The notes beneath the pieces were generated by a model. It was not told where the DNA came from. It searched no databases and saw only the letters and a list, made by a program, of their open reading frames with translations. The position numbers were made by a program, and so were the translations under genes. This document shows positions 40,432-58,699 of a stretch of 64,000 nt of DNA, piece after piece (the first letter of the stretch is position 1; every line of letters begins with the position of its first letter). The stretch lies in NCBI GenBank assembly GCA_015063185.1, contig SUSY01000002.1, positions 19,222 to 83,221 on the forward strand. The letters are read 5' to 3'. Source of the DNA: Thermoplasmata archaeon (GTDB lineage Archaea; Thermoplasmatota; Thermoplasmata; Methanomassiliicoccales; Methanomethylophilaceae).

Positions 40432-41526
40432 ATGGAAACGATGAGGATCGTCGAGGCAAACCCATTCTTCTACCCATTCCAGGGAGGAATAGAACACAGG
40501 ATGCACATGACGTCGAAGCTCTTCGCCAAAAGAGGCCATGACGTCACCATCCTGACCTCCAGACTCCCCGGTACCAAGGAGGTCGAGGAGACGGAATATG
40601 GATACAGGATAGTTCGTGTTCCCTCGAGATTCATCAACATCTACAACCCGCCGTATGTCATAAGCAAGAACGTTCTGGAGACGTTGAACGGTCTGGATGC
40701 GGACATAGTGAACTACAACTACAGGTGGGCACCGTCATTCGACAAGGACATCTCCCACTACGAAGGGAAGAAGGTGTTCACCTATCACAACATGTGGGGA
40801 GAAGGGGTCGGACTTACAGGCATGGTGTCGGAGATCAACGACAACCACTATCGCAAGAGATTGATGCGGTACGACCACATCGTCGCCATCACCGACTGTG
40901 TCCGCGACGACCTTGTCAGAAGAGGTGTGCCAGAGGATATGATCACTGTCATCTCCAACTGCCTCGAGACGTTCCCCGAACTGTCCGACGAGGAAGGGGA
41001 GTTCATCCTCAATCTGGGACGTATGGTCAGTACGAAGGGACTGAACTATCTGGTCGAAGCGATGAGGGACGTGGACTACAAGCTCATCATGTGCGGAAAG
41101 GGTCCGGAATCCAAGAAGATATCCAAACTGATCAGGAAGTACGGGCTCGAAGACCGTATTGAGATGAAGGGCTGGGTCAGTGAAGAGGAGAAGCTTAGGC
41201 TGATGAGTACGTGCAAGTTCTTCGTCATGCCGTCGATCTATGAGTCATACGGCCTCGCCGCATTGGAGGCACTCTCCTACGGAAAACCGATCGTCTGTAC
41301 GGACGTGGATGGGCTTCCGGGGAACGTGAAGAATGCCGGATCATATGTGAAGCCAAAGGATTCCAAGGGACTTGCCAAGGCCATCAACGACCTTCTGGAA
41401 AACGATGATGAAAGGAGGCGCCTATCCGACAACGCACTCAGGGTCGTACACGAATTCACATGGGACGACCAGATAGCCAAGACGGAAAAGCTATACAGGT
41501 CCATCGTGGATGGCGATGACAATTAA
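40432..41526 (+). CDS. GT4-type glycosyltransferase
   Basis: Start METMRIVEANPFFYPFQGGIEHRMHMTSKLFAKRGHDVTILTS; MPSIYESYGLAALEALSYGKPIVCTDVDGLP. Confidence 0.9.
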   Translation: METMRIVEANPFFYPFQGGIEHRMHMTSKLFAKRGHDVTILTSRLPGTKEVEETEYGYRIVRVPSRFINIYNPPYVISKNVLETLNGLDADIVNYNYRWAPSFDKDISHYEGKKVFTYHNMWGEGVGLTGMVSEINDNHYRKRLMRYDHIVAITDCVRDDLVRRGVPEDMITVISNCLETFPELSDEEGEFILNLGRMVSTKGLNYLVEAMRDVDYKLIMCGKGPESKKISKLIRKYGLEDRIEMKGWVSEEEKLRLMSTCKFFVMPSIYESYGLAALEALSYGKPIVCTDVDGLPGNVKNAGSYVKPKDSKGLAKAINDLLENDDERRRLSDNALRVVHEFTWDDQIAKTEKLYRSIVDGDDN

Positions 41527-41548
41527 TAGTTGCGCTGGCATATGATAC

Positions 41549-42037
41549 GTGATGATAGGTTTCGAGACCATCTTCTCCGCACTCGTAGCGGTCACACTGT
41601 TTCTGATACTACTGTCAGTGCCGTCCATATTGGTCACCCTGACACACGCATCCAGACAGTTCAAGAAATACAGGACGCTCAGAGCGATGAGGGAGAAGGG
41701 CATCACCGATATCCCCCCGAAGATGATCCATGAATGGAATGCGGTGAAGACCGACGTGGGATACATCACAGTCCTTACAGAGGAACTCGAGAAGATGGGT
41801 GCACTCAGACCGGCACTCTTCAATTCGGAGATCTCTGCCATCCTTATTGTCATTCTTATGATAGTACCAGGATTCGAGTGGGGAGTGTTCATCCTCATGT
41901 TCGCATTACTGATACTTTGCATCCTATCCCTCGTGTACGGATACAGGGTCATGAAACGCTACGGTGAGGAGTATGTCAACACCGCACGTACCATGTCCGA
42001 GAAGACCGAGGACTCCACGGATAGCATGTACGTCTAA
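41549..42037 (+). CDS. Membrane protein of unknown function
   Basis: 162 aa; N-terminal TM and two central TM segments. Confidence 0.55.
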   Translation: MMIGFETIFSALVAVTLFLILLSVPSILVTLTHASRQFKKYRTLRAMREKGITDIPPKMIHEWNAVKTDVGYITVLTEELEKMGALRPALFNSEISAILIVILMIVPGFEWGVFILMFALLILCILSLVYGYRVMKRYGEEYVNTARTMSEKTEDSTDSMYV

Positions 42038-42080
42038 CCCGTAGCAAAACCCTATATCACCCCAGAGTGATGGAGGTACC

Positions 42081-42557
42081 ATGGCTACAGTCACACTGAA
42101 GACCAACATGGGAGACATCGACATCAAGATGTACGATGACATGCCCATCACCGCAGGCAACTTCGTCAAGCTCGTCAAAGAGGGATTCTATGACGGACTC
42201 ACATTCCACAGGGTCATTGCAGATTTCATGATCCAGGGAGGATGCCCCAACGGAACCGGAACCGGCGGACCCGGATACACCATCAAGGACGAGTTCGTCA
42301 AGGGACACTCCAACAAGAGGGGAACCATCTCCATGGCCAACGCAGGACCCAACACAGGCGGAAGCCAGTTCTTCATCAACCTCGTTGACAACGGCTACCT
42401 TGACTGGGACAACAGGTCCACCCCTTACGCGCACCCCGTCTTCGGAAAGGTCACCAAGGGAATGGAGGTCGTCGACGCGATCGCAGCTGTCGAGACCAAC
42501 AGGAACGACAAACCCCTCCAGGACGTCGTCATCGTTCAGGCGATCGTTGACGAGTGA
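42081..42557 (+). CDS. Cyclophilin-type peptidyl-prolyl cis-trans isomerase
   Basis: 158 aa; [50 protein letters not shown]. Confidence 0.94.
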
Positions 42558-42569
42558 ACAACATCTTAA

Positions 42570-42583
42570 GGGCCTTCGGGCCC
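42570..42583 (+). terminator. UUCG-capped GC hairpin after the cyclophilin gene
   Basis: GGGCC-TTCG-GGCCC. Confidence 0.5.
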
Positions 42584-42705
42584 CATCATTTCTAAGATAC
42601 GCTGATGCCCATCCTCTACACGAAGACGAGGAACCCATATAGGAGAGTTTGTAGTTCTGGCTATATCTCCAAGGTACAATCCTCGAAACCCACGAAGGAC
42701 GACAC

Positions 42706-43461
42706 ATGAAATGGATATCCCGTGACCCTTTGAAAAGAGAGGTCGATTCCAAGGACCATGATCTATTAGACGAAGTAGTGGAGAGGATCCTAAGCAAAGT
42801 CACCGCCACTTCGGACTTCGGAATCGAGTTACAGATCCACGACCTCCTTCTGAAGAACGTGAAATATGTCAACAAAGAGAGGAACACGGAACACACCATT
42901 GAGGGCCCCCTCCTCAACAAGAAGGCGGTCTGTGAAGGCATCGCCAAAGCGATGAAGTACCTAATGAACAGGAAAGGTGTAGAGTGCGAGATGGTCCTCG
43001 GAAAATTAGACGACGAAGAGGATGATGACATCTATCACGCGTGGAACGTGGTCCGTATCGATGGGGAATGGTATCACGTAGATGTCACCGCGGACATAGG
43101 GATATCCAATGGGAAATCCTTCCGTTACGATTACTTCAACCTCTCGGATGAGGAGATCTCCATGGACCACCTGATCATCAGATCGCCTGTAACCTGTAAT
43201 GTATCCAGGAACGGATACTATCATCGTATGGGCCTGGTGATCAACACACAGAAGGAATTCAAACGTATATTGGAAGAGAAACTGGAGAATGGAGAATCCG
43301 AATTCACATTCAAACTCCCTTCCGCCAAGGACCCCGAGAAGGTCACCACCACACTTATGAGACACATCGAGGAGATCACGGAGATCGTAGAACATCCTTT
43401 CAAAAGATACGAGATCAGTCCGAATCCGGATCAACTGGTGTACACCATAAGGTTCCTATGA
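42706..43461 (+). CDS. Transglutaminase-like cysteine protease superfamily protein
   Basis: 251 aa; Cys KKAVCEGIAKAMKYLMNRKGVECEMVLG, His DIYHAWNVVRIDGEWYHVDVTAD Asp; no signal peptide seen. Confidence 0.75.
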   Translation: MKWISRDPLKREVDSKDHDLLDEVVERILSKVTATSDFGIELQIHDLLLKNVKYVNKERNTEHTIEGPLLNKKAVCEGIAKAMKYLMNRKGVECEMVLGKLDDEEDDDIYHAWNVVRIDGEWYHVDVTADIGISNGKSFRYDYFNLSDEEISMDHLIIRSPVTCNVSRNGYYHRMGLVINTQKEFKRILEEKLENGESEFTFKLPSAKDPEKVTTTLMRHIEEITEIVEHPFKRYEISPNPDQLVYTIRFL

Positions 43462-45402
43462 CCTGTTACGATTCCAGAAGTTCCTGATCCTGTCGATGAA
43501 CATGGACATTCCACCCCTTATGCGTGACCTCCTATCCACGACCAATTCCTCTGGCACACATACATTGCTATCCAAGGAACGCGCCCTCTCGTACCATGCC
43601 CTGGCACCGTCAAGGTCGTTTGACGACATGCACCTTTCACCAATCCTCAACATAGCTGGCACATACCCTCTCTGTGCGGACGACGATAGATAGAGATCTG
43701 AGTGATAGTGATCGTGTAATTTATCCATAATCTCGGAATACAGGAACGCATATTCGGGAGCATCATCCGCAGCATCCTTGAAAGGTTGATGTATGGAAGG
43801 GGTTGCTGCCCAATCGACCTTGTCCTCCATGATGAACCTGTACAGCCTCACCATGGAATCCCCGCGCTTACCTTCGGAGACATCATCGATGCATTTCTGC
43901 TGGGAGGACCTCCGGGCCCTTTTCACGACCACCTGTGTGTCTGGAACGGCCTCGTCCTCCATTGACTGCACCACATCCTCCATCGGTTCGGAAATAGCCA
44001 TCGGTGAAAGAAGTGCCAGATCCTTGGCATACTCCAACAATTGCTTCGCAGGTGAGAATCCCTGGTCCGCGGAACGGGTCAGCCATTTAATCGCGTCGGA
44101 TTTTGATACGGGAACGCCGATACCATCCAAGAAACAGAGGCCCAACCTGTACTGCGCCTCTGCACTGGGTCTTTTGGAGGATGCTGACCTAAGGAAGTAT
44201 TCCGCTGCCTTACGGTCATTCTGTTGTTCCAAAATACCATCGGAACACAACCTCCCCATCACCAACAACGATACGGATGATCCGGATGCGGCCCTCTTCT
44301 TCAGCAACGGTAATTTCTCAGGATGATCCAGAATGAAATCGTAGTCCATGTCGAACACGTATTCCGCCTTGGATACTGGCACAGTACCTGGACTGATACC
44401 TCTGAGTGCCTGGGAATGCCTCCTATCCGCATCACAGAATGGACATGTACCGAGAACTCCATCGAACCTATGGACGTTGTTCACCTTGCACTGCACCGAG
44501 GCCTTCTCATACAGATCGATCTCCGTGAGGAACTCCTTTATGCTGGGTCTTACGGTGGGATCGGAGTATCCGTCTCTGAACATACGAACGAACAGCATCC
44601 GCAAATCCATTGGAACAGCTTCGAGAGGTATGCCGTGCGGAGGAGGTGCGATACCCAACCTGTTCTCCAGATATGGGAACGTGGGCGGATCCAACTCATA
44701 TGCGTACATGGGCTGATGGGACAGTTGACGGGTAGGCTTGTAGTTGAACGGGTGCTCCCCATTCATCAACAATCTGAACAGATGGACCGCTAATGTGTAT
44801 ACGTCGGATTCCTTGGTGAAAGGGAGATCCTTCTTCCTCTCATCGGGAAGGGATTCGTTGGCCTTCATAGCGGAACGGATCTCCATCGGTACCATCTCCG
44901 GCCTAGCCACCTTCCCTCCAAACCTGTCGAATATGAAGGAATCGGTATCCATCAGAGTGACGGTACGTCTCTTCACATCCACCTTTATGTTGGCAGGATT
45001 GAAATCTCCGAAGACGAACCCTGCCTCATGGACGTTGGACAATGCGATGCAGAGGTTCTTCGCTATGGTGAACTTGACATCCTGAGGTATTGCACGGTTC
45101 TTGGTGGATGTTGCATACACACTACTGAAGGAGTCGCCCTTCACACGTTTCATGACGAAACCTCTGAAAAGATTGCCTTCGAAGATTAACTCCTCCGGAA
45201 AGGACACATCCGTCGAGTGTTTCAGATTCGATTCCACCATCTTGGTAATCTTCGAAATCAGTTCCGGCTTCGGATCATGATAGATCTTCATCACACGTGT
45301 CGGATCACCTGCTATACTGTAGACTGCTCCTTCTCCACCACTTCCGAGCTTCTCGAGAGCGCGATAAATCTTGTTGTTGGATCTTCCACGGAGTTCTGCC
45401 AT
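43456..45402 (-). CDS. YegI-like divergent protein kinase with Zn-like motif and Sel1 repeats (kinase B)
   Basis: Likely start MAELRGRSNNKIYRALEKLGSGGEGAVYSI; RVMKIY; GFVFGDFNPANIKVD; LMDTDSF; C-x5-H-x8-C-x2-C (QCKVNNVHRFDGVLGTCPFC); Sel1-like AEYFLRSAS...AQYRLGLCFLDGIGVPVSKSDAIKWLTRSADQGFSPA. Confidence 0.85.
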   Translation of the reverse strand: MAELRGRSNNKIYRALEKLGSGGEGAVYSIAGDPTRVMKIYHDPKPELISKITKMVESNLKHSTDVSFPEELIFEGNLFRGFVMKRVKGDSFSSVYATSTKNRAIPQDVKFTIAKNLCIALSNVHEAGFVFGDFNPANIKVDVKRRTVTLMDTDSFIFDRFGGKVARPEMVPMEIRSAMKANESLPDERKKDLPFTKESDVYTLAVHLFRLLMNGEHPFNYKPTRQLSHQPMYAYELDPPTFPYLENRLGIAPPPHGIPLEAVPMDLRMLFVRMFRDGYSDPTVRPSIKEFLTEIDLYEKASVQCKVNNVHRFDGVLGTCPFCDADRRHSQALRGISPGTVPVSKAEYVFDMDYDFILDHPEKLPLLKKRAASGSSVSLLVMGRLCSDGILEQQNDRKAAEYFLRSASSKRPSAEAQYRLGLCFLDGIGVPVSKSDAIKWLTRSADQGFSPAKQLLEYAKDLALLSPMAISEPMEDVVQSMEDEAVPDTQVVVKRARRSSQQKCIDDVSEGKRGDSMVRLYRFIMEDKVDWAATPSIHQPFKDAADDAPEYAFLYSEIMDKLHDHYHSDLYLSSSAQRGYVPAMLRIGERCMSSNDLDGARAWYERARSLDSNVCVPEELVVDRRSRIRGGMSMFIDRIRNFWNRNRS

Positions 45403-45409
45403 GCCGACC

Positions 45410-46978
45410 TCATGCGAGCCTGTAGTAATCGTTCGATTCCACAATCTGCTTGGCGGTAATCAAAGTTGCTATCGCCTTACCCAAGCGATGAGAGGATCTG
45501 GGACTTCCATAACGATATCCCAAACGACGCTCGGTTTCCAGGATCAGATCGGAGAGGTGTACCGCACCCCTGTCCTTTATCACCGACAATAGGGCATTCC
45601 TCATATCCAGATATGACACTTGAGATATGGATTTGGCCCTTTTACCATCGGGCATACGCCTGTATTGACGGAAACGATCATAATCCGAAGGCGTGAGTGC
45701 ATATGTGACGAACGGACCGTCCTCCACGTGGAAGAAATCCTCCCTCAAGATCTTCCTCACGACGGCCTTCCCCGGTTTCGGATCCGATAGATATCTTCTG
45801 CAAAGGTCGATCAGGTAGGATTCGTCGATGGGCGATTGATCCTGTATCAACGATTCTGCAACGGATTGGATCGAACCGTTCGGTATGTCATCTGGGATAT
45901 CGGTGTAGAACGCACTACAATAACTGGTCATGCGGGGATTGTGCCTCGATGACGACATCATCCTACCCAATGCCTTGGAGTAATTGGATTCCGCCAGACA
46001 CAACGGACAACTGTGTACGCCCTCATGATAGTAGTGTACTGGATTCCTACGACACTGCTTCAACGAATTACGGTAATCGATCAGGGCGGAATGCCACTCC
46101 TTGGATGACGGACGATTGTCCTTGGTCAGGAATGCTCTGCTGAACAACAGTTTCATACCATCAGGTAAGGAGGAGAAACGCGGTGCGTAACTTGGAGCGA
46201 CTATGTGCTTGCCATCCGGATCCATGGATGGGACGGTTCCGCTCAGGATGTTGTCCCTGATCGTAGGGAGGTTGACATCGGAACCGGGACGTAACGCACC
46301 CTGAAAAGGATGTGCACCGTTCATCAATAATTGATAGATATGGATCGCCAATGAGAAATCATCCGATGATTCGGTGAATGTTGGTACCTTCAGGGACTCC
46401 AACGTCCTCCCTTTGGTGAGCCTCTTGGCGATCTCCGGGGCAAGATAGTTGGGCATACTGACCATACAACCGTACACCTTACCGTTGGAATTGATGTGAT
46501 ACGAATCGGTATCGACCAACTTCACATGACCGGACCTCATGTTGACGAACATGTTCTTAGGATTGAAGTCACCGATGACCTGCCCTGCATCATGGACCGC
46601 GTTCAGTGCACAACACAGGTTGATCGCGATGACCACCCTATGCGTCCACGGAGTGTTGGAATACTTGGCCTTGGATCCGATCTCGTAGATTGCACTGATG
46701 GATTCGCCACCGTAGATACGGTCCATGACGAAACCACGGAAATTTCCTCCTGAATCATATAGGGCATCCTTCGGCCATGCCAGGAGTTTGGAATCACGTA
46801 AGGGGGACAGGACCATGGCTCTGACCTTCTCCTCACGGAACTTCGTGGGAGACTTGTAGACCTTCGCCACGTGGTACTTGTCACCCATGATGGCATAGAG
46901 GTCCCCCTCACCGCCTCCGGCGATATGATCGGACAATCCGTACCTGTGACCACTCGTGCCTATGAGATACATCTTCAC
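45410..46978 (-). CDS. YegI-like divergent protein kinase with Zn-like motif (kinase A)
   Basis: YGLSDHIAGGGEGDLYAIMGDKYHVAKVYKSP; GQVIGDFNPKNMFVN; KLVDTDSYHI; QCRRNPVHYYHEGVHSCPLC; C-terminal winged-helix-like region. Confidence 0.85.
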   Translation of the reverse strand: MKMYLIGTSGHRYGLSDHIAGGGEGDLYAIMGDKYHVAKVYKSPTKFREEKVRAMVLSPLRDSKLLAWPKDALYDSGGNFRGFVMDRIYGGESISAIYEIGSKAKYSNTPWTHRVVIAINLCCALNAVHDAGQVIGDFNPKNMFVNMRSGHVKLVDTDSYHINSNGKVYGCMVSMPNYLAPEIAKRLTKGRTLESLKVPTFTESSDDFSLAIHIYQLLMNGAHPFQGALRPGSDVNLPTIRDNILSGTVPSMDPDGKHIVAPSYAPRFSSLPDGMKLLFSRAFLTKDNRPSSKEWHSALIDYRNSLKQCRRNPVHYYHEGVHSCPLCLAESNYSKALGRMMSSSRHNPRMTSYCSAFYTDIPDDIPNGSIQSVAESLIQDQSPIDESYLIDLCRRYLSDPKPGKAVVRKILREDFFHVEDGPFVTYALTPSDYDRFRQYRRMPDGKRAKSISQVSYLDMRNALLSVIKDRGAVHLSDLILETERRLGYRYGSPRSSHRLGKAIATLITAKQIVESNDYYRLA

Positions 46979-48312
46979 CTGGGCCTATCGGCTATGGACA
47001 TGGAGTCCAACCTGTTGGAATAGGTCTTCAACCCTTCGATCGTCGGATCGAGGAGCCTAGCCTTCCTCAGGAACACGTCCGCCTTATCGGATTCGCCCTT
47101 CGATGACCAATACTCTGCCATCAACAAGCATGCGGCCACATCGTTCAAGGCGATGGCGATGAGACAACGGTCCATCTGTTCCCGATCGTCCAACGATCCG
47201 AGAGTGGAAGTGTCCAGATATTCCTTCGCCTCCTGATCGCCTTCCTCGGCAGCGGCCCTGAATTGCAACGCAGCAAGACTGCGCATACCCATACGCAACA
47301 TCGCCTTCGCCCTTTCCAATGCCTCGGATCCCTTAGATATGGCCTCCTTCACGATCTCGGTGACAGGATTCTCATCGGGCTGTTCGATCGGTCCCTCCTC
47401 AATCTCTTCGATGGGCTCTTCGACTGGATCTTCCTTCGAAGCACCACCATCCTTGTACAATGACGGGTAAGCTTTCCTCTTCCATTCCTCATTGAGTGCA
47501 GCCCAATCCGGTTCCTTGTAGTATTCGTCACCGCGGTATTCGGACGTGACATGGATGTTCATCGCTGCGATGAACGTGAGGTCATCGTTTGTGATTCCCT
47601 TGTGGATGTCGCTGTAGAGATAGCTTAACCTTTTAGCAAAACAATCCTCGATCGGCGTACCCTTCCTCTCGAAGAACTTGAAATCCGCCAACCAACTGAC
47701 GAGACGGATGTATATTGGCTCGTCCGTGAGTTTCAGACGTCCGGGCATCAAAAGGTCAAGGACACCGTCGGTCATGGCCATGACCGAGACGAATGGACCA
47801 TCCCTCTGACCGAACTCCCATGCGGACAGGTCCCTCAATGGCTTGACCGAATTGGCCTCCGCACCCTTCTGCGGAGTGGTGATGGATTCAACGACTCCAT
47901 TCAACCCTATTGCAAGGATGGCCCCATCCCCGGAATGGCCGTATACCAGATTGCCGGATTCGGCATCGAACACTGCAGTGGATAAGGTGGTGTCATAGTC
48001 ACAGGGCCAACCGGTCCCTTCCGCTGTATGTTGGTCGATGGCCGACCATGCCTTCTCGTAGGCCTCGCGGATCACATCGGGCGTGAACGGAGGTTCTACA
48101 CCCTCAAGATACCTTTTGACCGTATCGACGGCTATGCGGGACCCCTCATCGGAACGCTCCGCACTGCCGACACCATCCGCAACGATCAATATCGCTATGT
48201 TCGGATGGTTCGGGTGCAGACCGAAATGATTGCTGTCCTGACACGGTTTTCCGGTGGACTCATGGGAACGTCCGCGCTTCGATCCACCGTAGGCACGGAT
48301 GTCGTATTCCAT
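46975..48312 (-). CDS. PP2C-type protein phosphatase with C-terminal helical repeats
   Basis: Likely start MEYDIRAYGGSKRGRSHESTGKPCQDSNHF; VADGVGSAERSDEGSRIAV; YGHSGDGAI; MAMTDGVLDLL; TNDDLTFIA. Confidence 0.88.
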   Translation of the reverse strand: MEYDIRAYGGSKRGRSHESTGKPCQDSNHFGLHPNHPNIAILIVADGVGSAERSDEGSRIAVDTVKRYLEGVEPPFTPDVIREAYEKAWSAIDQHTAEGTGWPCDYDTTLSTAVFDAESGNLVYGHSGDGAILAIGLNGVVESITTPQKGAEANSVKPLRDLSAWEFGQRDGPFVSVMAMTDGVLDLLMPGRLKLTDEPIYIRLVSWLADFKFFERKGTPIEDCFAKRLSYLYSDIHKGITNDDLTFIAAMNIHVTSEYRGDEYYKEPDWAALNEEWKRKAYPSLYKDGGASKEDPVEEPIEEIEEGPIEQPDENPVTEIVKEAISKGSEALERAKAMLRMGMRSLAALQFRAAAEEGDQEAKEYLDTSTLGSLDDREQMDRCLIAIALNDVAACLLMAEYWSSKGESDKADVFLRKARLLDPTIEGLKTYSNRLDSMSIADRPR

Positions 48313-48316
48313 CTGA

Positions 48317-49024
48317 TCACCAGTCGGACACATCACGATCTGGGTCGTACTTACGTGCATCCTGTGGCAACGGATTCAACTTGTTCTCGTTATCGGGAGA
48401 ACTGACGGAGATCACGGTCATACTGTCGGAAAGCCAATTGAATATGCCGTCGAAGTTGGCGGTACGGAGCTCGATGACCCTGCTGGTGAGCGATGAGAGG
48501 ACATCCCTGTTGGCATTGTCGACGGCAACAGCGAAGAACTTGAGCTTTCCGTGCTGACCCTTGGCTTCCTCCTCCTTTATCCTGATCCTTGCGGTCTCGA
48601 TCTCGGATGGCGCCTCACCCTCGGGCATTCCATCCGTGATCATGAAGATCCATGGTTTGAAACAAGGTGTTCCGAGGTTGTTGTAGAACCTGTTGCGTTC
48701 TTTGACAAGATCGATGGCGGTGTTGATTCCCTTTCCCATCGCGGTGTACCCGCCTGCCATGAGATTGATGGGCTGGAGCTCGGAGATGGGCACGAAATCC
48801 TGGACGACATTCACTTCCGAATTGAACTCAACAACGGCGACGTCGACCCTGTTCTTCGACTCCTCGTTCTTACAGACCTGCATCTTGAAATCGCTGACGG
48901 CCTTGTTGAGATTGTCGATACAACCCGTCATAGACCCCGATGTGTCCAGAAGGAGAACGCATGCAAGGTGCGGTTCGTTGGTTGCTTCGATACGTGCTTC
49001 CTCACCAAAAGATATCTGTTCCAT
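48317..49024 (-). CDS. vWA-domain protein (TerY/YegL-like)
   Basis: 235 aa; MIDAS VLLLDTSGSM, GGYTAMGKGI, FMITDGMPEG. Confidence 0.88.
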   Translation of the reverse strand: MEQISFGEEARIEATNEPHLACVLLLDTSGSMTGCIDNLNKAVSDFKMQVCKNEESKNRVDVAVVEFNSEVNVVQDFVPISELQPINLMAGGYTAMGKGINTAIDLVKERNRFYNNLGTPCFKPWIFMITDGMPEGEAPSEIETARIRIKEEEAKGQHGKLKFFAVAVDNANRDVLSSLTSRVIELRTANFDGIFNWLSDSMTVISVSSPDNENKLNPLPQDARKYDPDRDVSDW

Positions 49025-49114
49025 TTCAATCCCACAGGTGCACGCACGTAGTAGGATAAAAACTATAGCAATTTACGATAAGAAAAATACGATTTTTACA
49101 GCATGTGCCAGACA

Positions 49115-51745
49115 TCAAAGGAAATCGGACTTGAACTCCACGGTGAGACGATCGTTTCCTCTGATGCACGAATCGATCGTCCTGAGCAACCTTTCGGAAT
49201 CCATCGATTTCAATTCCTGGAACAACCTCTTGGTGAGACCGTCGTCCTTTCTCGTACCGCGTCCGGAATTGGACAGGAGCATCAACCTGTACTTTGCATC
49301 GAAGTTGCCGTTCTCCGAGGACAGGGTGTACCACCTGAACGCCTCCGCATAGAACTGAGGCATACCCAGACCCTTCTCGAACATCCTTCCGAGAAGGAAC
49401 TGGGCCTCCGGATCGTTATCATGTGCGGCCAGCCTCAACCTCCTTATCGCTTCAGGATGCCCCTTGACGTCACTGCCTGGTAATGAGAGGATACGACCGA
49501 TCTTGCGGTTCGATACCATGTTGCCGGAATCCGCGGACCTCCTGTAATGGTCCAATGCGACAGAGATGTCACGCTTCACGGCACCCGAAGATATCATGTC
49601 CGCACAGATGATGGATGACTCCAAATGACCCAGATTGGAGGCCGATTCGAACCAGTCGTAAGCAAGTGATTCGGACCTCTCGACTCCGTCGCCCTCCAGG
49701 TACATCTCGCCTATCGCATGATACACATCCATATCTGGCTCATCTGACAGCATCATCAATCCGCGATATCTTTCCTCTCCGGATGAGGACATTATCCTGG
49801 ACCTATCCAATCTTTCCTTGGCATCATCCGAACCTAGCTCTATGGCCCTCTGATAATGTTTTCTCGCCAAACTGTACGATGTACTGACCCCGTCACCCGA
49901 CTCGTAACAATGACCCAGACGATATTGGATCATTGGGTCGTCATGATACATGAACAACCTGTACTTCGAGAACCATTGTCCCTCCGGAACATCGTCGCTG
50001 GATAGATCAATACGTTCTGTTGCATCCGAATTCCCGTTGGCGGATGCACGCTCGTACCATTGTAACGCCTCATCCATATCCGCCCTGTCACGGGCCTTCG
50101 ATTCGAGGTATGCTGCCAACCAGAGCTGTGAATCGGAATCGCCACCTATGGCCAATGACCTACGATACCTCACCGCCGTATGGATGCCCTTCTTGGTACC
50201 GATACCGTTCTCGTAACGAACGGCCAACTCCCGGATCACCGAAGGATCTCCCTCCTCCGAACGCAGGAGCAGCCTTCTCATGCATTCTGTATCCGATAAG
50301 GAACCTAGATCGGACACGTCCACCAATTGTGCGGCCCTTTCGTTCCCTGCATTCGCAGACTTGATGAACCACTGAAGTGCCAGATGATAATCCTTCAGAT
50401 TGGACAATTCATACAGCTCTCCAATGCGGAACATCAGATCGTGTATCCGGATCTCCGGAGGCGACCTCACACGACATATGAGATCCGAGAACACTGGCAC
50501 ATCCGATTCTGTGGAATCGATAATTGCATTGTACCATTGTATGGCCTGATCATAGGATACGGTACCGGCCACACCGGACTCGTAGCATTGTGCCAGCAAA
50601 TATCTCGCATAGTTATCCCCAGCATATGCTGGCAATCTAGCCTCCGTGAACACCATCGGATCCGTGCCGGATGCGTCCAATTCCAGACGGTTGCCAGCGT
50701 ACCTATTACCAAGATCCGCTGACTCCCGATACAGTTGGCATATGCCCTTCGCATCGATACCGTCGATCCCTTTTCCGGATGAAAAATCGAATGTACTCTC
50801 ATAACAGGATGCCAACTTGAAGAGTGCATCCGGATCCTTTCCGCACTTCTTGTATGCCCTGATGGCCTTCGAGATGTTAGGGGCCATCCTCCCAAGACCG
50901 TTCTGATGTATCAGACCCAAACGATAGGATGCTCTGATACAGCCCTTGGACTGTGCCTTCTTATAGAGTTCCACCACCTTGGTAGCGGACGCGCCCTTGA
51001 ATGAAGGATTGACCCTCAGGTTATGCTCGAAATGGTTCGCGAGATGATACGATACCAATGGATCCTCGCCATCGGTGACCTTGTTGATGATATAGCAACG
51101 ACGATACGAATCCTCGTCCAATATCCCATCCGGCCTGCCATCGAGAAAATCCGAGGAAAGATACCCTGTAGCGGAATCGTTCCCCCTGGCCAAAGAACGT
51201 GAATAGAACTCCGCTGCAGAATCCAGCTTACATGCGCCGTTCAACTTCTCTGCGAATTCGAACTCCGATGAACCGTCCGGATTCCAGAACAGGTCAGTAT
51301 CGTTGAGCGTATCCTTCACACCCAACTTGGACAGGAAACCGGATGCGAGGAGATTAACCACATCCTGTTGTATCACGGCACTGAGATCCCTGAAGTCATG
51401 GATGTCCTCGAAATACATGGCGAATGCCGACTCTATCTCCGAATGCTGTACAGGGAACACTGAGAAGTTCGAGCACCTGTAGTTCTGGATTATGTGCATC
51501 TCCAGATCCATCAACATCCTGCGGATCACATATGGAAGTTCGCGCCCGCTCCTCTCATTCTGGATCGATAGAGAATAAGGCAATCCCGAATCGTGATCCA
51601 ACCTGTCTCCCGGAGACTTCCTGAAATTGGACTCCCTCAGGGTATAGAATCTGAAATTGGAATCATCGATACAGTATAGTCTATACTTACCCTTGGAAGA
51701 GGGTTCGTTCTCACAATCCAGGACGTATAGTGATGTGCGCCTCAT
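49115..51745 (-). CDS. Large Sel1-like-repeat protein with unassigned N-terminal domain
   Basis: 876 aa; about 200-aa non-repeat N-terminus, then many SLR units such as AIRAYKKCGKDPDALFKLASCYE and AFRWYTLSSENGNFDAKYRLMLL. Confidence 0.85.
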   Translation of the reverse strand: MRRTSLYVLDCENEPSSKGKYRLYCIDDSNFRFYTLRESNFRKSPGDRLDHDSGLPYSLSIQNERSGRELPYVIRRMLMDLEMHIIQNYRCSNFSVFPVQHSEIESAFAMYFEDIHDFRDLSAVIQQDVVNLLASGFLSKLGVKDTLNDTDLFWNPDGSSEFEFAEKLNGACKLDSAAEFYSRSLARGNDSATGYLSSDFLDGRPDGILDEDSYRRCYIINKVTDGEDPLVSYHLANHFEHNLRVNPSFKGASATKVVELYKKAQSKGCIRASYRLGLIHQNGLGRMAPNISKAIRAYKKCGKDPDALFKLASCYESTFDFSSGKGIDGIDAKGICQLYRESADLGNRYAGNRLELDASGTDPMVFTEARLPAYAGDNYARYLLAQCYESGVAGTVSYDQAIQWYNAIIDSTESDVPVFSDLICRVRSPPEIRIHDLMFRIGELYELSNLKDYHLALQWFIKSANAGNERAAQLVDVSDLGSLSDTECMRRLLLRSEEGDPSVIRELAVRYENGIGTKKGIHTAVRYRRSLAIGGDSDSQLWLAAYLESKARDRADMDEALQWYERASANGNSDATERIDLSSDDVPEGQWFSKYRLFMYHDDPMIQYRLGHCYESGDGVSTSYSLARKHYQRAIELGSDDAKERLDRSRIMSSSGEERYRGLMMLSDEPDMDVYHAIGEMYLEGDGVERSESLAYDWFESASNLGHLESSIICADMISSGAVKRDISVALDHYRRSADSGNMVSNRKIGRILSLPGSDVKGHPEAIRRLRLAAHDNDPEAQFLLGRMFEKGLGMPQFYAEAFRWYTLSSENGNFDAKYRLMLLSNSGRGTRKDDGLTKRLFQELKSMDSERLLRTIDSCIRGNDRLTVEFKSDFL

Positions 51746-51761
51746 GATTGGTTGTTCGGAA

Positions 51762-53282
51762 TCAACTTGTCAGATCTGCATATGCGGCCTTCGCATCCTC
51801 GTCACCGAGGTCCGCCGCCCTCTTGTACAATTCGATCGCCTTGTCGATGGACATGTCCACACCATAACCGGACTCGTACAGGACGGCAAGGTTGTACAAA
51901 GAGGACACATGATTCTGCTCTGCCGCCTTTGTGAACCATTTGGCGGCATCCGCATAGGATTCGTCGACACCGATTCCATTGAGGTACATCATACCAAGAT
52001 TGAACTGTGCGATGGCGTATCCATTGGATGCGGATTCGTTGTACCAGGTGAGTGCGGATGCCTCGGACTGTTCCACACCGAGACCGTTCTGATAGAGATA
52101 AGCGAGATTGTTCTGCGCCATGGGGTGACCCTGGTTCGCAGCACGCGTGTAGTACTCGGATGCGGTGATGTACGACTGCTCGATACCGTCACCGCTCTCA
52201 CACAACAGTCCCAGATGATACTGTGCCCTTGCATAGTTCTGCTCTGCGGCCTTCTTATACCACTTGACCGCCTCGTCGTAGGACTGTTCGACACCCTGGC
52301 CGTTCTGGTACATGACACCGATGATGTTCTGGGCCCTCGCATATCCTTGAAGTGCGGACTTCTTGTACCACACCACTGCATCTATGTAGGACTGCTTCCT
52401 TCCCTTCCCATACTGGTACATCCAACCGGTATCGCACTGTGCGATGGCGTTACCTTCCTCCGCCTTCGAGATGAATCTCTCGGCGTTCTCGGTCATCCAT
52501 TCCGCAAGTTCCTCGTCGGATACGTCCTTCTCGGATGGTACGAGACTGTGAAGCACACTGCGTGCCATCAGGTGTCCGTTGTCGGATGCAAGCTTGTACC
52601 ACTTGACCGCTTCGCCATAGGACTCGTTGACATTGTAACCGGAACCGTACATCCTTGCCACCGTGTACTGGGCCCAGATATCGCCTTTCTTAGCCTCTGC
52701 GACCTGTGCATCGATACCGTTCGGATCGACCTTCACGCTGCTGGACTGGATGGACGGACCCATCGCCTTCTCGGTGGAACGCTTGAGGGACCTCTTAGAT
52801 CCCGTGGATACTGCCCTGGGAGATACGTACTCGGAGATGCTCTTGGTGATTATCGGCATGGATGCCATGAGATTCTCGTATTCCCAAAGATCCAACCACT
52901 GGTATCTGCTGAGAAGGAGTTCCAATGCAGGAGGGAACATGAGCTTCTCTTCGAATATCAAAGGAATGATGATCTTATCGCGCCTCTTGGCGGCATTGAT
53001 CTCGTCGGGAACGAAGGTGGAGCCGTTGATGGCACTTGTACATACCAATACGAATACGGGGCATTCGCAGATTCCGTTCATGATCCCCTCTTCGTACATA
53101 CTTCCGGCAGGGATGTCACGCGGAGCGATCCAACACTTGAAACCTGCGGCTTCGAGATTGTTGCAAAGGTCCCTCGCGATACCTTTGTCGTCGGACGAAT
53201 GACTGATGAACACCTGATATGTGGAATCTGCAGATTGGGCCATGATATCCAAGGATGGTAGGGACGTATTCATTAAAAACAA
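51762..53282 (-). CDS. TIR-domain protein with C-terminal Sel1-like repeats
   Basis: 506 aa; TYQVFISHSSDDKGIARDLCNNLEAAGFKCWIAPRDIPAGSMYEEGIMNGI...STFVPDEINAAKRRDKIIIPL (TIR), then about 8 regular SLR units with YQNGQGVEQSYDEAVKWYKKAAEQ consensus. Confidence 0.92.
   Translation of the reverse strand: MFLMNTSLPSLDIMAQSADSTYQVFISHSSDDKGIARDLCNNLEAAGFKCWIAPRDIPAGSMYEEGIMNGICECPVFVLVCTSAINGSTFVPDEINAAKRRDKIIIPLIFEEKLMFPPALELLLSRYQWLDLWEYENLMASMPIITKSISEYVSPRAVSTGSKRSLKRSTEKAMGPSIQSSSVKVDPNGIDAQVAEAKKGDIWAQYTVARMYGSGYNVNESYGEAVKWYKLASDNGHLMARSVLHSLVPSEKDVSDEELAEWMTENAERFISKAEEGNAIAQCDTGWMYQYGKGRKQSYIDAVVWYKKSALQGYARAQNIIGVMYQNGQGVEQSYDEAVKWYKKAAEQNYARAQYHLGLLCESGDGIEQSYITASEYYTRAANQGHPMAQNNLAYLYQNGLGVEQSEASALTWYNESASNGYAIAQFNLGMMYLNGIGVDESYADAAKWFTKAAEQNHVSSLYNLAVLYESGYGVDMSIDKAIELYKRAADLGDEDAKAAYADLTS
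51780..52680 (-). repeat. In-frame tandem ~108-bp repeats encoding 36-aa Sel1-like units
   Basis: Recurrent AxxWYxxAAxxxxAxAQxxLGxxYxxGxGVxxSYxx units in the TIR protein. Confidence 0.8.
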
Positions 53283-53291
53283 TATCCTATT

Positions 53292-54935
53292 CTATTGTCT
53301 GTGTACAGTTATACCCATACTCCTGAGGATGGGTATCATGTTCCTCACCGCTTCGCGATCGTATTCCCTGATGCTCTCCGGTATGACGCCCCAAGGTGCG
53401 ATGTATGGGGAGATCCTGTTATCTGAATCCTTCTTCTCACCGTACACCCAACCGCTGGACTTGCGCTCGGTGACCCAACGGTCGTGCTCCAATATGGAAA
53501 GGAACTCCACCTCGCCTTCGGAGAGCTCGTCCATCGCGGTATCTGGATCACCATCCTGGGACATGACGCATCCGATCGCAACGATCTTGTCGAAGTATCC
53601 GTAGGCCTGTTTGATGTTGGATAGCTTCAGATCGTCACGGAGGTTATCCCAACTACCGTATTCGGTCTGACCTTCCTCCTTACGTCTCCTCACATAATCA
53701 TCATGGATGGCCATCGCGACCTCCTCGATCCTGTCTATGAAGAATGCGGGAATCTCCGGATCCATCATGTCGGAACCTTTCAGGAACAATTCTGCCGAAC
53801 GTTCACAGGTACATACGATATCCAATCCGTTCGGGAAGAGCTCCTCCACCTTCAACAACCTGTTCAATGTCTTACCCTTCGATTCGGGGAAGGATTCCGA
53901 CATTGCTATGGACGAGGTCCTGTACTCTATGGACATCCCATCATCAGAGATCACATATCTGGATTTGGATGGATAGACACTCTTGACAGTGGCACCGTAT
54001 GCGACACGGTTCCATTCCTGCAGCTCATCACAGAGGATCAACAGATAGGAGATTGGATCTGAATCCAGGGACAAAGGGCCCAGATTGAACGGTTCCCTTG
54101 TGAACGTGTGGTTGTGGAAGTTGTGCATCAGGATTGCGGATGCTCCCTCCACTACGGGTACGATGGCATCCTTACCGTATTGACCATGGATGTTGCTCAT
54201 CCATTTCATCAACATGAGTGCACTGAAATACCCATGATCGACGAAACATGTCCTATACATGTTATCCTCATACCCTTTCAGAGCAGAGATTGCATCCTGC
54301 AACGGAATGCCCAGGATGGAAGAGATCCTGTCAGCCATCATCTCAAGGGAATCCTGACCATCGTGATGGACCATCAGGTCCTCCATCCCCCTGATCATAG
54401 GTACCGGTGTGATCTTCGAATCCTCACGATAACATGCGGACCTGAGGAACCTTCTGATCTTGTTGTAGGATATCTCTATGGGATACCCCATATCATGGAA
54501 CATGGATGCCAGACCCCAAACGTACAGGAACTCCTCGTCCGTGTTTTCAAGAGAGATGTCCGTCCTATGATCCGTGAATGCATCCCTGAACCTCTTGGAC
54601 GATGCGTATATGGAAAGACCGAGAATGAACACGTTGATGGAGTGTACGTAATGGTCCCTCTGACTGTCCACCATCTTGTCGGCACGTTTCTCGTACGCAT
54701 GCATCAACTCGATCAGACCGAGGAGATCGGCCTCCCCCGACAACCTATACGAGTTCCTGAACGTGCGATAGATGACGGATGCATTCTCCTCCGTTTCCGA
54801 TGAAGAGAATTCCTTCAGGGCCTCCCTCAATATGGTCAACGTTCCCTTGTTACCTTTGGTATCCTTGGAGAACAATGAATCGAAGAAGGAGTCCACGTAT
54901 TTCCTTGTGAAGAGTCCGGGCATCTCTGAGGCCAT
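53292..54935 (-). CDS. HD-domain phosphohydrolase fused to C-terminal RyR domain
   Basis: 547 aa; HD-like RDHYVHSINVFILGL...LASMFHDMGYPIE...VDHGYFSALMLMKW...AILMHNFHN...LLILCDELQEWNR; RyR-like LSILEHDRWVTERKSSGWVYGEKKDSDNRISPYIAPWGVIPESIREYDREAVRNMIPIL. Confidence 0.78.
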   Translation of the reverse strand: MASEMPGLFTRKYVDSFFDSLFSKDTKGNKGTLTILREALKEFSSSETEENASVIYRTFRNSYRLSGEADLLGLIELMHAYEKRADKMVDSQRDHYVHSINVFILGLSIYASSKRFRDAFTDHRTDISLENTDEEFLYVWGLASMFHDMGYPIEISYNKIRRFLRSACYREDSKITPVPMIRGMEDLMVHHDGQDSLEMMADRISSILGIPLQDAISALKGYEDNMYRTCFVDHGYFSALMLMKWMSNIHGQYGKDAIVPVVEGASAILMHNFHNHTFTREPFNLGPLSLDSDPISYLLILCDELQEWNRVAYGATVKSVYPSKSRYVISDDGMSIEYRTSSIAMSESFPESKGKTLNRLLKVEELFPNGLDIVCTCERSAELFLKGSDMMDPEIPAFFIDRIEEVAMAIHDDYVRRRKEEGQTEYGSWDNLRDDLKLSNIKQAYGYFDKIVAIGCVMSQDGDPDTAMDELSEGEVEFLSILEHDRWVTERKSSGWVYGEKKDSDNRISPYIAPWGVIPESIREYDREAVRNMIPILRSMGITVHRQ

Positions 54936-54981
54936 GAACGTTGATGGTCGAGGACATTCAATAGGATTGTGCCTACCAGGA

Positions 54982-56661
54982 TCATTTCTTCAGATGCTTA
55001 CCAAGATAGTAATATGCATCCGTCAGGGTCTTTGTGAGATGATACCATGTATCCCTAGGATGATAGACCATGCTGACATACTTCTCATGCTTCGCATCCA
55101 CTGGCCACTTCATAGCAGCGAGGGCTGCCCTGGTCTTGGGTGACAACGGGGATGCGAGGACTCTCAACCAGGCCTTTATGTTCTTGTATCCGAGATCGAT
55201 CATCCTGTCCGGGAACAGGTCTTTCACGATATCAGAATAGGCCAGTTCGCCGTTGGTCACATGCTCGTAGATATCCAACCTCTGTCTCTCTTCCTCGCAG
55301 ACATCCTTGAATATGGGCTCACCTTCGGAAGATATGCCGACTATAGGAGGTTCAGGACTGGAGAGGAAGAACTCCGTGAGGTTCACATTGTCCCAGAGTT
55401 TGATGGTCTTATCACGTGTGTGATACCCTTTGTGCTCGATGTTGGGATCATCATTCAGTATGAAATAGTACAGACCTTCGACCTTAGCATCGGGAAAGAT
55501 GTCGGAGATCAGTTTCTGTGAGGAATATTTCATCGTTGTCACATCCACGATGGATATGTTATCGTATTCTCCCAGTGTCTTCGCATACTTGTTGAATAAA
55601 TCCTTACGTTTTTTCTTTATCTCCACTTTGTTCTCTTCGAAGAAAGTGTATGGATCGCCTTCAAAATCCGGGTAGAAGTAATTGACAAGGACCTCCTGAT
55701 ACCCTTTGTAACTCTTGTAATTGGAACCTATGAGTATGTTGAGGAAACGGGGAGCATAGATGTACAGACTCTCATCGAAACTGTTCCTATCATGATACTG
55801 TTTCATGTTGTACCCATCACGGGCGACGAAGAACAACGTACTGTCCTTATCACGATTCTTCTCGATGAACCTCATGTAGTCGAAGAGTAACGGCCCACCG
55901 AACCTATATGCGACATCATACCAGAAATCGTTACCTTTCTCATAGGAGTGGATCATATCCAGAGATACGATCATCGATCTCTCAACAGATCTATTGGCCA
56001 GATAGAACTTATGGATCAAAGGGTGTTTTCTTAGATAGTTGTCTATTGGACGTCTGACATTGGCACAGTATATTCCGAGACTCCTTGGTACACGATAATC
56101 GGAATGCTTGTTGTCACCGAAATGGATGATCTCGTCAGGATGTATCCTCTTCTCGGCCAACATCCTCTTGAATAGGTTTCCGGAATGCTTGTTGCAATTG
56201 TGTTCGCATGAGACGTACAGGTCCGTGTACCCTTCCAATCCACACAGTTTGAGAAGATGTTCAAGATACCTCTTCGGAAGGTACATGTCGGAGATGAGAT
56301 AGACCTCACGTTTCTTGCATAATGCATTGAATGCGTCCCTGACCTCGGGAAGACAGAATGCACACATCTCGAACTCCAACTCCGTCCTCTTCAGATGTGC
56401 ATACTTCGGGTCGATCGTCTCATAGATGTTGGCAAAGGTCGTCTCTCCTGACCATTTGTCCCTTGCCAGATGTTCCGCACGAATTCTCTCCTTCGCGAAC
56501 CCTGGAGCGTTGGAGAATTTCTCGATGTGTTTGAAGAGGTCCCTCGGTTTCACATAGGGTCTCAACAGAAGCGTGTCATAGATGTCGAAGGAGATGTACT
56601 TGTATTTCCTGGCCTCGGTGAATAACCACCTGATGTCCGTGATGTCCCCATGCTTCGTCAT
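54982..56661 (-). CDS. Large HAD-superfamily protein (cell-surface polysaccharide-type)
   Basis: 559 aa; ISFDIYDTLLLRPYVKPRDLFKHIE, VYLISDMYLPKRYLEHLL, IHFGDNKHSDYRVPRSLGI. Confidence 0.75.
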   Translation of the reverse strand: MTKHGDITDIRWLFTEARKYKYISFDIYDTLLLRPYVKPRDLFKHIEKFSNAPGFAKERIRAEHLARDKWSGETTFANIYETIDPKYAHLKRTELEFEMCAFCLPEVRDAFNALCKKREVYLISDMYLPKRYLEHLLKLCGLEGYTDLYVSCEHNCNKHSGNLFKRMLAEKRIHPDEIIHFGDNKHSDYRVPRSLGIYCANVRRPIDNYLRKHPLIHKFYLANRSVERSMIVSLDMIHSYEKGNDFWYDVAYRFGGPLLFDYMRFIEKNRDKDSTLFFVARDGYNMKQYHDRNSFDESLYIYAPRFLNILIGSNYKSYKGYQEVLVNYFYPDFEGDPYTFFEENKVEIKKKRKDLFNKYAKTLGEYDNISIVDVTTMKYSSQKLISDIFPDAKVEGLYYFILNDDPNIEHKGYHTRDKTIKLWDNVNLTEFFLSSPEPPIVGISSEGEPIFKDVCEEERQRLDIYEHVTNGELAYSDIVKDLFPDRMIDLGYKNIKAWLRVLASPLSPKTRAALAAMKWPVDAKHEKYVSMVYHPRDTWYHLTKTLTDAYYYLGKHLKK

Positions 56662-56697
56662 CTTCGGGATAAATGAATCTGCTGGGATATAAGACTC

Positions 56698-57063
56698 TCA
56701 TACGAGAGGCCTGCTCTCCAGAACTAGATGGGTTCCGGAACGAAGATAGATGAGGGGAACACCGTGCTTTCTGAGCTTACTCCTGAGCAACTTGTCGTTG
56801 GTCAGGACGTATGCGTTCTCACGAAGGGCCAATTCTATGACGGAAGCGTCACCTGTGGCATCGGTCTTGATTATGGTGTATCTCCTCGCAAGGTCCAACG
56901 CTGCGTTGGCATACTTGTGCTTGAGGTGCTTCAGTTCACCGATCAGTGGTCCGGGGACGACAAAACGTACATCCCCAAGAAGGTCACGAACTGCGTAATC
57001 AAGATTGATACGCAGTTCGAAAGGCATTAGTAAAGCGTTTGTGTCGAGAACGACGGTCTGCAT
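56698..57063 (-). CDS. PIN-domain protein (Fcf1/VapC-like nuclease fold)
   Basis: 121 aa; MQTVVLDTNALLMPFEL...IGELKHLK...ATGDASVIELALRENAYVLTNDKLLRSKL. Confidence 0.85.
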   Translation of the reverse strand: MQTVVLDTNALLMPFELRINLDYAVRDLLGDVRFVVPGPLIGELKHLKHKYANAALDLARRYTIIKTDATGDASVIELALRENAYVLTNDKLLRSKLRKHGVPLIYLRSGTHLVLESRPLV

Positions 57064-57069
57064 ACCGAA

Positions 57070-58305
57070 TCACTCGATGATACCGTATCCGATGAGTCTC
57101 CACTTGTTGGAGATCCTTCTGGAAATGGCCACTCTCTGTCCCTTGACGATACATACCGGAATCTTCAGGACGACCTGGATCTTTCCGGCCTTACCGTTCT
57201 TGACGACACCCACAGTGGTAGCGGTACCGATGGACAACATCAGCATCTCGTTGGACTTGATCTCATCGACCTCGAGATCGGATGATGAACCTACGACCCT
57301 GTCAAGGAGCACGGTCTTCATTGTGAAGTCGTGCGCCACCTCAGGCACCTGTCCGGGAATTCCAACCATACGTCCGGTGAGTCCATCGGACTTGGTGATG
57401 GAGGGATCGAGTGACGTACCGATGGAGATGAGTCCTCCGGGGCCAATGGATTTGACGGACTTGCTTCCGGCGAAGAGCGATGTCACCTTCGTGGTGAGTC
57501 TCTGCCAGACAGTCTTTCCGCCGACCTCCGTCCTGATACCGGGAACGATCTCGATCTCATCACCGATCTTCAGGGTACCCTGGATCAGGGAACCTCCGAG
57601 GACTCCGCCCTTGAGATCCTTGGGGGACGTACCGGGGGAGTTGATATCGAAGGACCTTGCGACATGCATGAGTGCAGGTGCATCTACATCCCTCTTGACA
57701 GAGGAAATGATGTGATCCTCAATAGTCTTGATCAGCATATCGATGTTCACCCCACTGTTCGCGGAGATGGGGACGATAGGCGCATTCTCGGCGATGGTAC
57801 CTTTGACGAACTCCTTGATCTGCTTGAAGTTCTCGACCGCCTGTTCCCTGGTGACGATATCGATCTTGTTCTGAACGATGATGATCTTCTCGATTCCTAT
57901 GATCGAGAGTGCCATCAGATGTTCCTTGGTCTGAGGCTGGGGACACTTCTCGTTGGCTGCAACAAGAAGGATCGCTCCATCCATGAGGGCAGCCCCGGAG
58001 AGCATTGTGGCCATGAGTGTCTCGTGACCGGGAGCGTCCACGAAGGACACTGCTCTGAGGAACTCGGTATCCGCACCACAGTTGGGACATTTCTTGTCAG
58101 TGCTGTATGCGGCTGCCCCCTCACAGTTGGGACACTTGTAGAACGCGACGTCTGCATATCCGAGTCTGATTGAGATTCCTCTCTTGACCTCCTCGGAGTG
58201 ACGGTCAGCCCACTCGCCAGAGAGTGCTCTGGTGAGCGTGGTCTTACCGTGATCGACGTGTCCTATCATCCCGATGTTGACTTCGGGCTGCTTGGGTACT
58301 TTCAT
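57070..58305 (-). CDS. eif2g: Translation initiation factor aIF2 subunit gamma
   Basis: 411 aa; [47 protein letters not shown]; Zn-ribbon CPNCEG...CPNCGA. Confidence 0.96.
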
Positions 58306-58309
58306 CGGA

Positions 58310-58699
58310 TTACTCCGAGGGCTCTGCGATGGTCTCTTCGATGGACTTGGGTCCGTACTCGGTGACGGCCATGTTGATCTGGACGATCTTCTCGGAGATT
58401 GCGCATCCGTGGATTGCGACCCTTCTCCTCTGTCCAGGGTACTTCTCGTGGAATCCGAGTCCCTCGGACATGAGGAGCATTCTCCTCTTGTTTCCGGGAA
58501 GGTCCTTCCTCATAGGAGTTCCGTTTCCATCTGATCCGCCGGTGATCTGGAGTTTGTATCCGGGAAGTCCGACGAAGATTCCGTCAATAATCTCTCCGAC
58601 GCACTTGCCAGTCAGAGAGTTCGCGTGGTGGCCGGTAACGGTCATGTTGTAGGACTTACCGGTCTTCTTGTCATTAACAACAGCTTTGTATTCTGCCAT
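58310..58699 (-). CDS. rps6e: 30S ribosomal protein S6e
   Basis: 129 aa; [30 protein letters not shown]. Confidence 0.95.

Follow-up and report, generated by a model that had tools for sequence, protein, structure and literature searches.

The gene at positions 49115-51745 on the minus strand of the window (the whole stretch of 64,000 nucleotides analysed here) codes for a protein of 876 aa that joins an orphan N-terminal domain to a long array of Sel1-like repeats (SLRs), and this protein might, as a tentative though quite possible reading, be the input component, i.e. the sensor or adaptor, of an archaeal TerY-P-like phosphorylation module. TerY-P triads are predicted stress or defence switches for which, to our knowledge, an input component has not been established. 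If the reading holds, a fast-evolving partner tied to the triad would be a concrete sensor candidate in gut methanogens, and the locus would offer a tractable system for how kinase/phosphatase switches get triggered in archaea.

The gene and its repeat region

The ORF starts with ATG and is a genuine gene, as seen from its codon usage, its Pfam Sel1 matches and an ortholog (L032:2-2413) in a second species, in which residues 74-876 are kept. In-frame codon log-odds amount to 0.15 for residues 1-73 and 0.35 for residues 74-150, as compared to -0.14 and 0.04, respectively, in the best other frame, and codon usage thus indicates coding from end to end. The contig carrying the ortholog ends inside the gene, at residue 74; the first 73 residues lie outside the comparison with the ortholog, and their coding status is read from the codon signal. 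A gene for a TIR-SLR protein (51762-53282, minus strand) lies 16 nt upstream and a vWA gene 90 nt downstream, all on the same strand, so that both the ORF and its place between the TIR and vWA genes, as given in the original prediction, are confirmed, with the strand now added. Rfam models gave no match in positions 41000-58500 of the window, and promoter and terminator scans around the locus returned no more than in shuffled sequence.

The protein is a Sel1-like repeat protein (PF08238/COG0790), its repeat region matching Pfam Sel1 in seven stretches (2.5e-48, 161 bits), and its Pfam matches are confined to Sel1 and related TPR models. It differs from other members of this class in its diverged repeats, its extra D-x-S spacers and its orphan N-terminal domain. 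Pfam, a dedicated SLR model and cross-genome matches together place the repeat region, with D-x-S-x-L-x-S type spacers between repeats, at residues ~160-840 (49226-51268, minus strand). The SLR model, built on the repeats of the neighbouring TIR-SLR protein, then refined on the operon and run with filters off, found ten stretches at i-E<1e-3, all within residues 270-811. SLRs are frequent in this lineage, with 52 matches in this genome and 28 COG0790 proteins reported for 'Ca. M. alvus' (PMC4153887).

An orphan N-terminal domain

The N-terminal domain (residues ~1-150; 51296-51745, minus strand) is without assignment and, at ~150-160 aa, shorter than the ~200 aa originally proposed, because the SLR model is empty before residue 175 and SLR proteins of other genomes match a two-sequence profile of residues 1-300 weakly and from residues 164-176 onward only. 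That the domain consists of degenerate SLRs, one of the findings that would have undone the original prediction, was looked for and is not the case, since none was detected in residues 1-174 with filters off.

The domain belongs to no family that could be recognised, as had been supposed at the outset: Pfam returned nothing up to E 10, NCBIfam and PADLOC models and plasmid and phage sequences gave no match, viral contigs held no relative, and in 389 genomes of the phylum nothing rose above chance apart from the ortholog mentioned above, the weak matches at E 0.008-0.04 being short and mostly in stop-broken or very short frames. Against the remaining proteins of the operon the best match was at E 1.8. 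Matches to Csm6 among PDB sequences (E 0.22) and to RPS17E (E 1.3) were taken as chance, as was one to phrog_18463 among the PHROGs (E 0.013), a model for which 8 of 14 control genomes, as well as stop-broken frames, likewise gave matches. As the scan of genome contigs used short degenerate patterns that would miss distant relatives, "orphan" describes the reach of the searches used.

Residues 7-17 contain a short PIN7-like motif, YVLDCENEPSS. The domain was therefore compared to eight real annotated PIN proteins from plasmids, retrieved with a putative PIN7 sequence as bait. Profile comparison by hhalign gave probabilities of 0.5-2.6% with alignments off-register, pairwise scores stayed inside the shuffled range (Z at most 1.1), and PF18475 had no match in the protein's own genome. 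Significant profile similarity including the catalytic acidic residues, as expected of a PIN7/PIN-like nuclease, was not found, and a PIN7/NYN-like assignment is rejected on present evidence.

A TerY-P-like module downstream

Downstream of the gene follow, on the minus strand, a TerY-like vWA protein (48317-49024; PF00092, 7.7e-10) with a DTSGS MIDAS motif at residue 27, a PP2C phosphatase (46975-48360; PF13672, 1.9e-30) and two Ser/Thr kinases, kinase 1 (45410-46978) and kinase 2 (43456-45444), with PF00069 matches at 5.6e-8 and 1.2e-8 and a C-H-CxxC motif in both, located after the kinase domain in kinase 1. Convergent with kinase 2 lies a transglutaminase-like gene on the plus strand (42706-43461; PF01841, 9e-12) with its C-H-D residues present. 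Outside the motif searches, catalytic residues were assessed by visual inspection of the translations for the vWA protein, the kinases, PP2C, TIR and the transglutaminase-like protein. SLRs recur in this set: kinase 2 carries Sel1 repeats and its tail matches the 876-aa protein at 5e-7, and the PP2C tail, blank in Pfam, holds an SLR-like segment of 40 aa related to the 876-aa protein (residues 455-494; 42.5% identity, E 2.6e-5).

In the account of the TerY-P triad contained in PMC4978471, which traces it to Anantharaman, Iyer & Aravind 2012, TerY, an STY kinase and a PP2C form a unit associated with stress and the response to phages, and DNA-processing genes (helicase, nuclease) accompany the bacterial clusters as companions outside the three-gene definition. 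The locus next to the 876-aa gene has the same core, namely a vWA protein with a MIDAS DxSxS motif, an adjacent PP2C_2 and adjacent STY-type kinases whose kinase domain is followed by a Cys-rich motif. It differs, however, in being archaeal, in having two kinases, in the SLRs on the PP2C tail and kinase 2, in the extra SLR protein with its orphan N-terminal domain and in the transglutaminase-like gene, and among the island genes scanned with Pfam there were no helicase, nuclease or WXG/FtsK partners.

Of six independent loci of this family that bear a TerY-P-like kinase and were compared here, five have a PF01841-type gene beside the kinase; this gene is possibly the protease effector of the module (window 42706-43461; L037:5113-5958; L110:2004-3029; L113:12030-13031; L114:570-1604; absent at L039; a further copy at L098:3269-4033). 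At L037 (genome G012) the TerY-like vWA gene has as its upstream neighbour a gene for another repeat protein (L037:10586-12775; 729 aa, secreted- or membrane-looking, no Pfam match above cut-off), so that the upstream partner of the triad varies among lineages.

Conservation and divergence of the locus

The single relative of the N-terminal domain outside its own genome lies on contig JAFVZR010000189.1 (G092:C133) of a Methanomethylophilaceae MAG (RGIG5541, hereafter G092) of the same genus from sheep colon. A first contig of G092 carries the ortholog of the 876-aa gene, vWA, PP2C and kinase in the order of the window; a second resumes at the same kinase and continues with kinase 2, the transglutaminase-like gene and PPIase, again in the order of the window. 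The TIR-SLR ortholog, ~75% identical, resides on a third contig, adjoining a tRNA-Thr and a MORN-repeat gene. With gene order retained on the vWA side and the TIR-SLR ortholog placed on a separate contig, the 876-aa gene travels with the TerY-P-like vWA/PP2C/kinase module and the TIR link is not conserved, as judged from two genomes of one genus. Accordingly, the original suggestion to look for the domain in other TIR or TerY-P loci led to the vWA/PP2C/kinase set and not to TIR. The G092 assembly lacks the stretch immediately upstream of the 876-aa ortholog, and its contig with PIN_9/aIF2gamma starts at this break, too. The TIR-SLR ortholog (L097:2174-3797), located next to tRNA-Thr and near the MORN-repeat gene, may be a mobile unit.

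Protein identity between the window and G092 is unevenly distributed. It is highest for a flanking NTase (90%), the vWA protein (89%), the catalytic part of PP2C (84%) and a flanking GT (83%), intermediate for TIR-SLR (74%), the catalytic part of kinase 2 (70%), the transglutaminase-like protein (69%) and the C-terminal part of kinase 1 (68%), and lower for the tails of kinase 2 (56%) and PP2C (48%). In the 876-aa protein it is 56-61% in the SLR region and 30% in residues 74-150 of the N-terminal domain, which is the fastest-diverging of the parts compared. At the border to the SLR rod, by contrast, a hinge at residues 153-170 (FWNPDGSSEFEFAEKLNG; 51236-51289, minus strand) is near-invariant (FWNPDGSS-E/D-FEFAEKLNG) and, with 17 of 18 residues identical, the best-conserved stretch noted, so that the low identity of the domain is no general alignment failure; divergence by frameshift is argued against by motifs conserved in register within it (D/Y-RDLS, Q-DVV). 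As dS exceeds 1 for most genes and is saturated for several, no claim of selection is made.

The genes lie in an accessory island of ~14.1 kb (42558-56697), between a PPIase gene and, on its right-hand side, the PIN_9/aIF2gamma genes. PPIase directly adjoins PIN_9/aIF2gamma in G090, G093 and G094 of the same genus and in G014 of another genus; this empty site in four relatives shows that the island is accessory DNA inserted into a core locus that is itself conserved. In base composition the island resembles its surroundings. The PPIase-PIN_9/aIF2gamma junction is an insertion site that is unoccupied in these four relatives and holds ~14 kb here.

Possible role of the 876-aa protein

For the sensor or adaptor role count the order 876-aa gene-vWA-PP2C-kinase-kinase-transglutaminase, kept in both carrier genomes (n = 2, one genus), the SLR kinship of the protein with the PP2C and kinase 2 tails, and the island insertion with its four empty sites; the unequal divergence, with identity falling from 89% in vWA to 30% in the N-terminal domain, is what a signalling core held constant and an input end free to change quickly would produce. 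Under this model the orphan domain would bind a cue that signals stress or an invader, the SLR rod would, through SLR-mediated assembly, keep close by the vWA protein as well as PP2C and kinase 2 with their SLR tails, and cue binding would tip the kinase/phosphatase balance and release a downstream effector. Candidates for this effector would be the transglutaminase-like protein and, in the genome of the window, TIR-SLR as well. However, fast divergence also fits weak constraint, and as SLRs are common in the lineage, shared SLRs alone would be no proof of interaction. A further-reaching version, in which the domain founds a rapidly varying recognition-domain family that feeds a TerY-P-like immune island in gut methanogens and the SLRs of rod, phosphatase and kinase assemble the complex, is considered rather unlikely. 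A defence role is suggested by the accessory setting and the TIR, RyR and TerY-P company only.

The sensor half of the original proposal of a scaffold or sensor is compatible with the speed of change of the N-terminal domain. A serious rival, though on balance an unlikely one, is a generic scaffold in which the rod is the part that matters and the domain, under weak constraint, serves as a cap or for oligomerisation and takes no part in recognition; the extent of the SLRs over residues ~160-840 and the contrast between hinge and domain would agree with it, whereas the motifs kept in register, together with a coding bias as strong as that of the rest of the protein, argue for a folded and maintained domain. 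Alternatively, the domain might be an effector enzyme, e.g. a nuclease that has diverged strongly, which the rod would deliver and phosphorylation would control. The PIN7-like motif and the presence of other effector-type genes in the island (TIR, transglutaminase-like) would speak for such an enzyme, but the failure of the PIN comparison and the lack of any other family match for the domain render it improbable. Still more doubtful is the other half of the original proposal, a scaffold that would physically connect the TIR and vWA halves: despite the 16-nt gap on the same strand and the SLRs in both proteins, the TIR-SLR/876-aa similarity is generic (mostly 22-31%), and in G092, with the caveat of the missing upstream neighbour, the 876-aa ortholog stays with vWA and the TIR-SLR ortholog does not.

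TIR and RyR genes in the neighbourhood

Upstream of TIR-SLR lies a gene for an HD-like (H...HD by eye) and RyR-domain protein (53292-54935, minus strand; PF02026, 7.6e-12), of which no relative was found in G092. With its TIR-SLR and HD-RyR neighbours the 876-aa gene resembles TIR/RyR NAD-signal defence genes in a Thoeris-like context (for RyR-domain work see PMC13232231), and RyR relatives stand beside TIR or DUF4062 genes elsewhere; the 876-aa protein itself differs in containing no TIR, RyR, SLOG or SIR2 domain and in that its TIR neighbour is not conserved. In Methanomethylophilaceae, RyR-domain proteins recur next to TIR or DUF4062 (TIR-like NADase) genes and SLOG/2TM proteins (L033:7761-13107; L034:10043-16049; L035:12757-18404; L036:7909-11694), and these recurring neighbourhoods suggest an archaeal NAD/cADPR signalling system; the locus L034 additionally contains a transglutaminase-like and an SLR gene.
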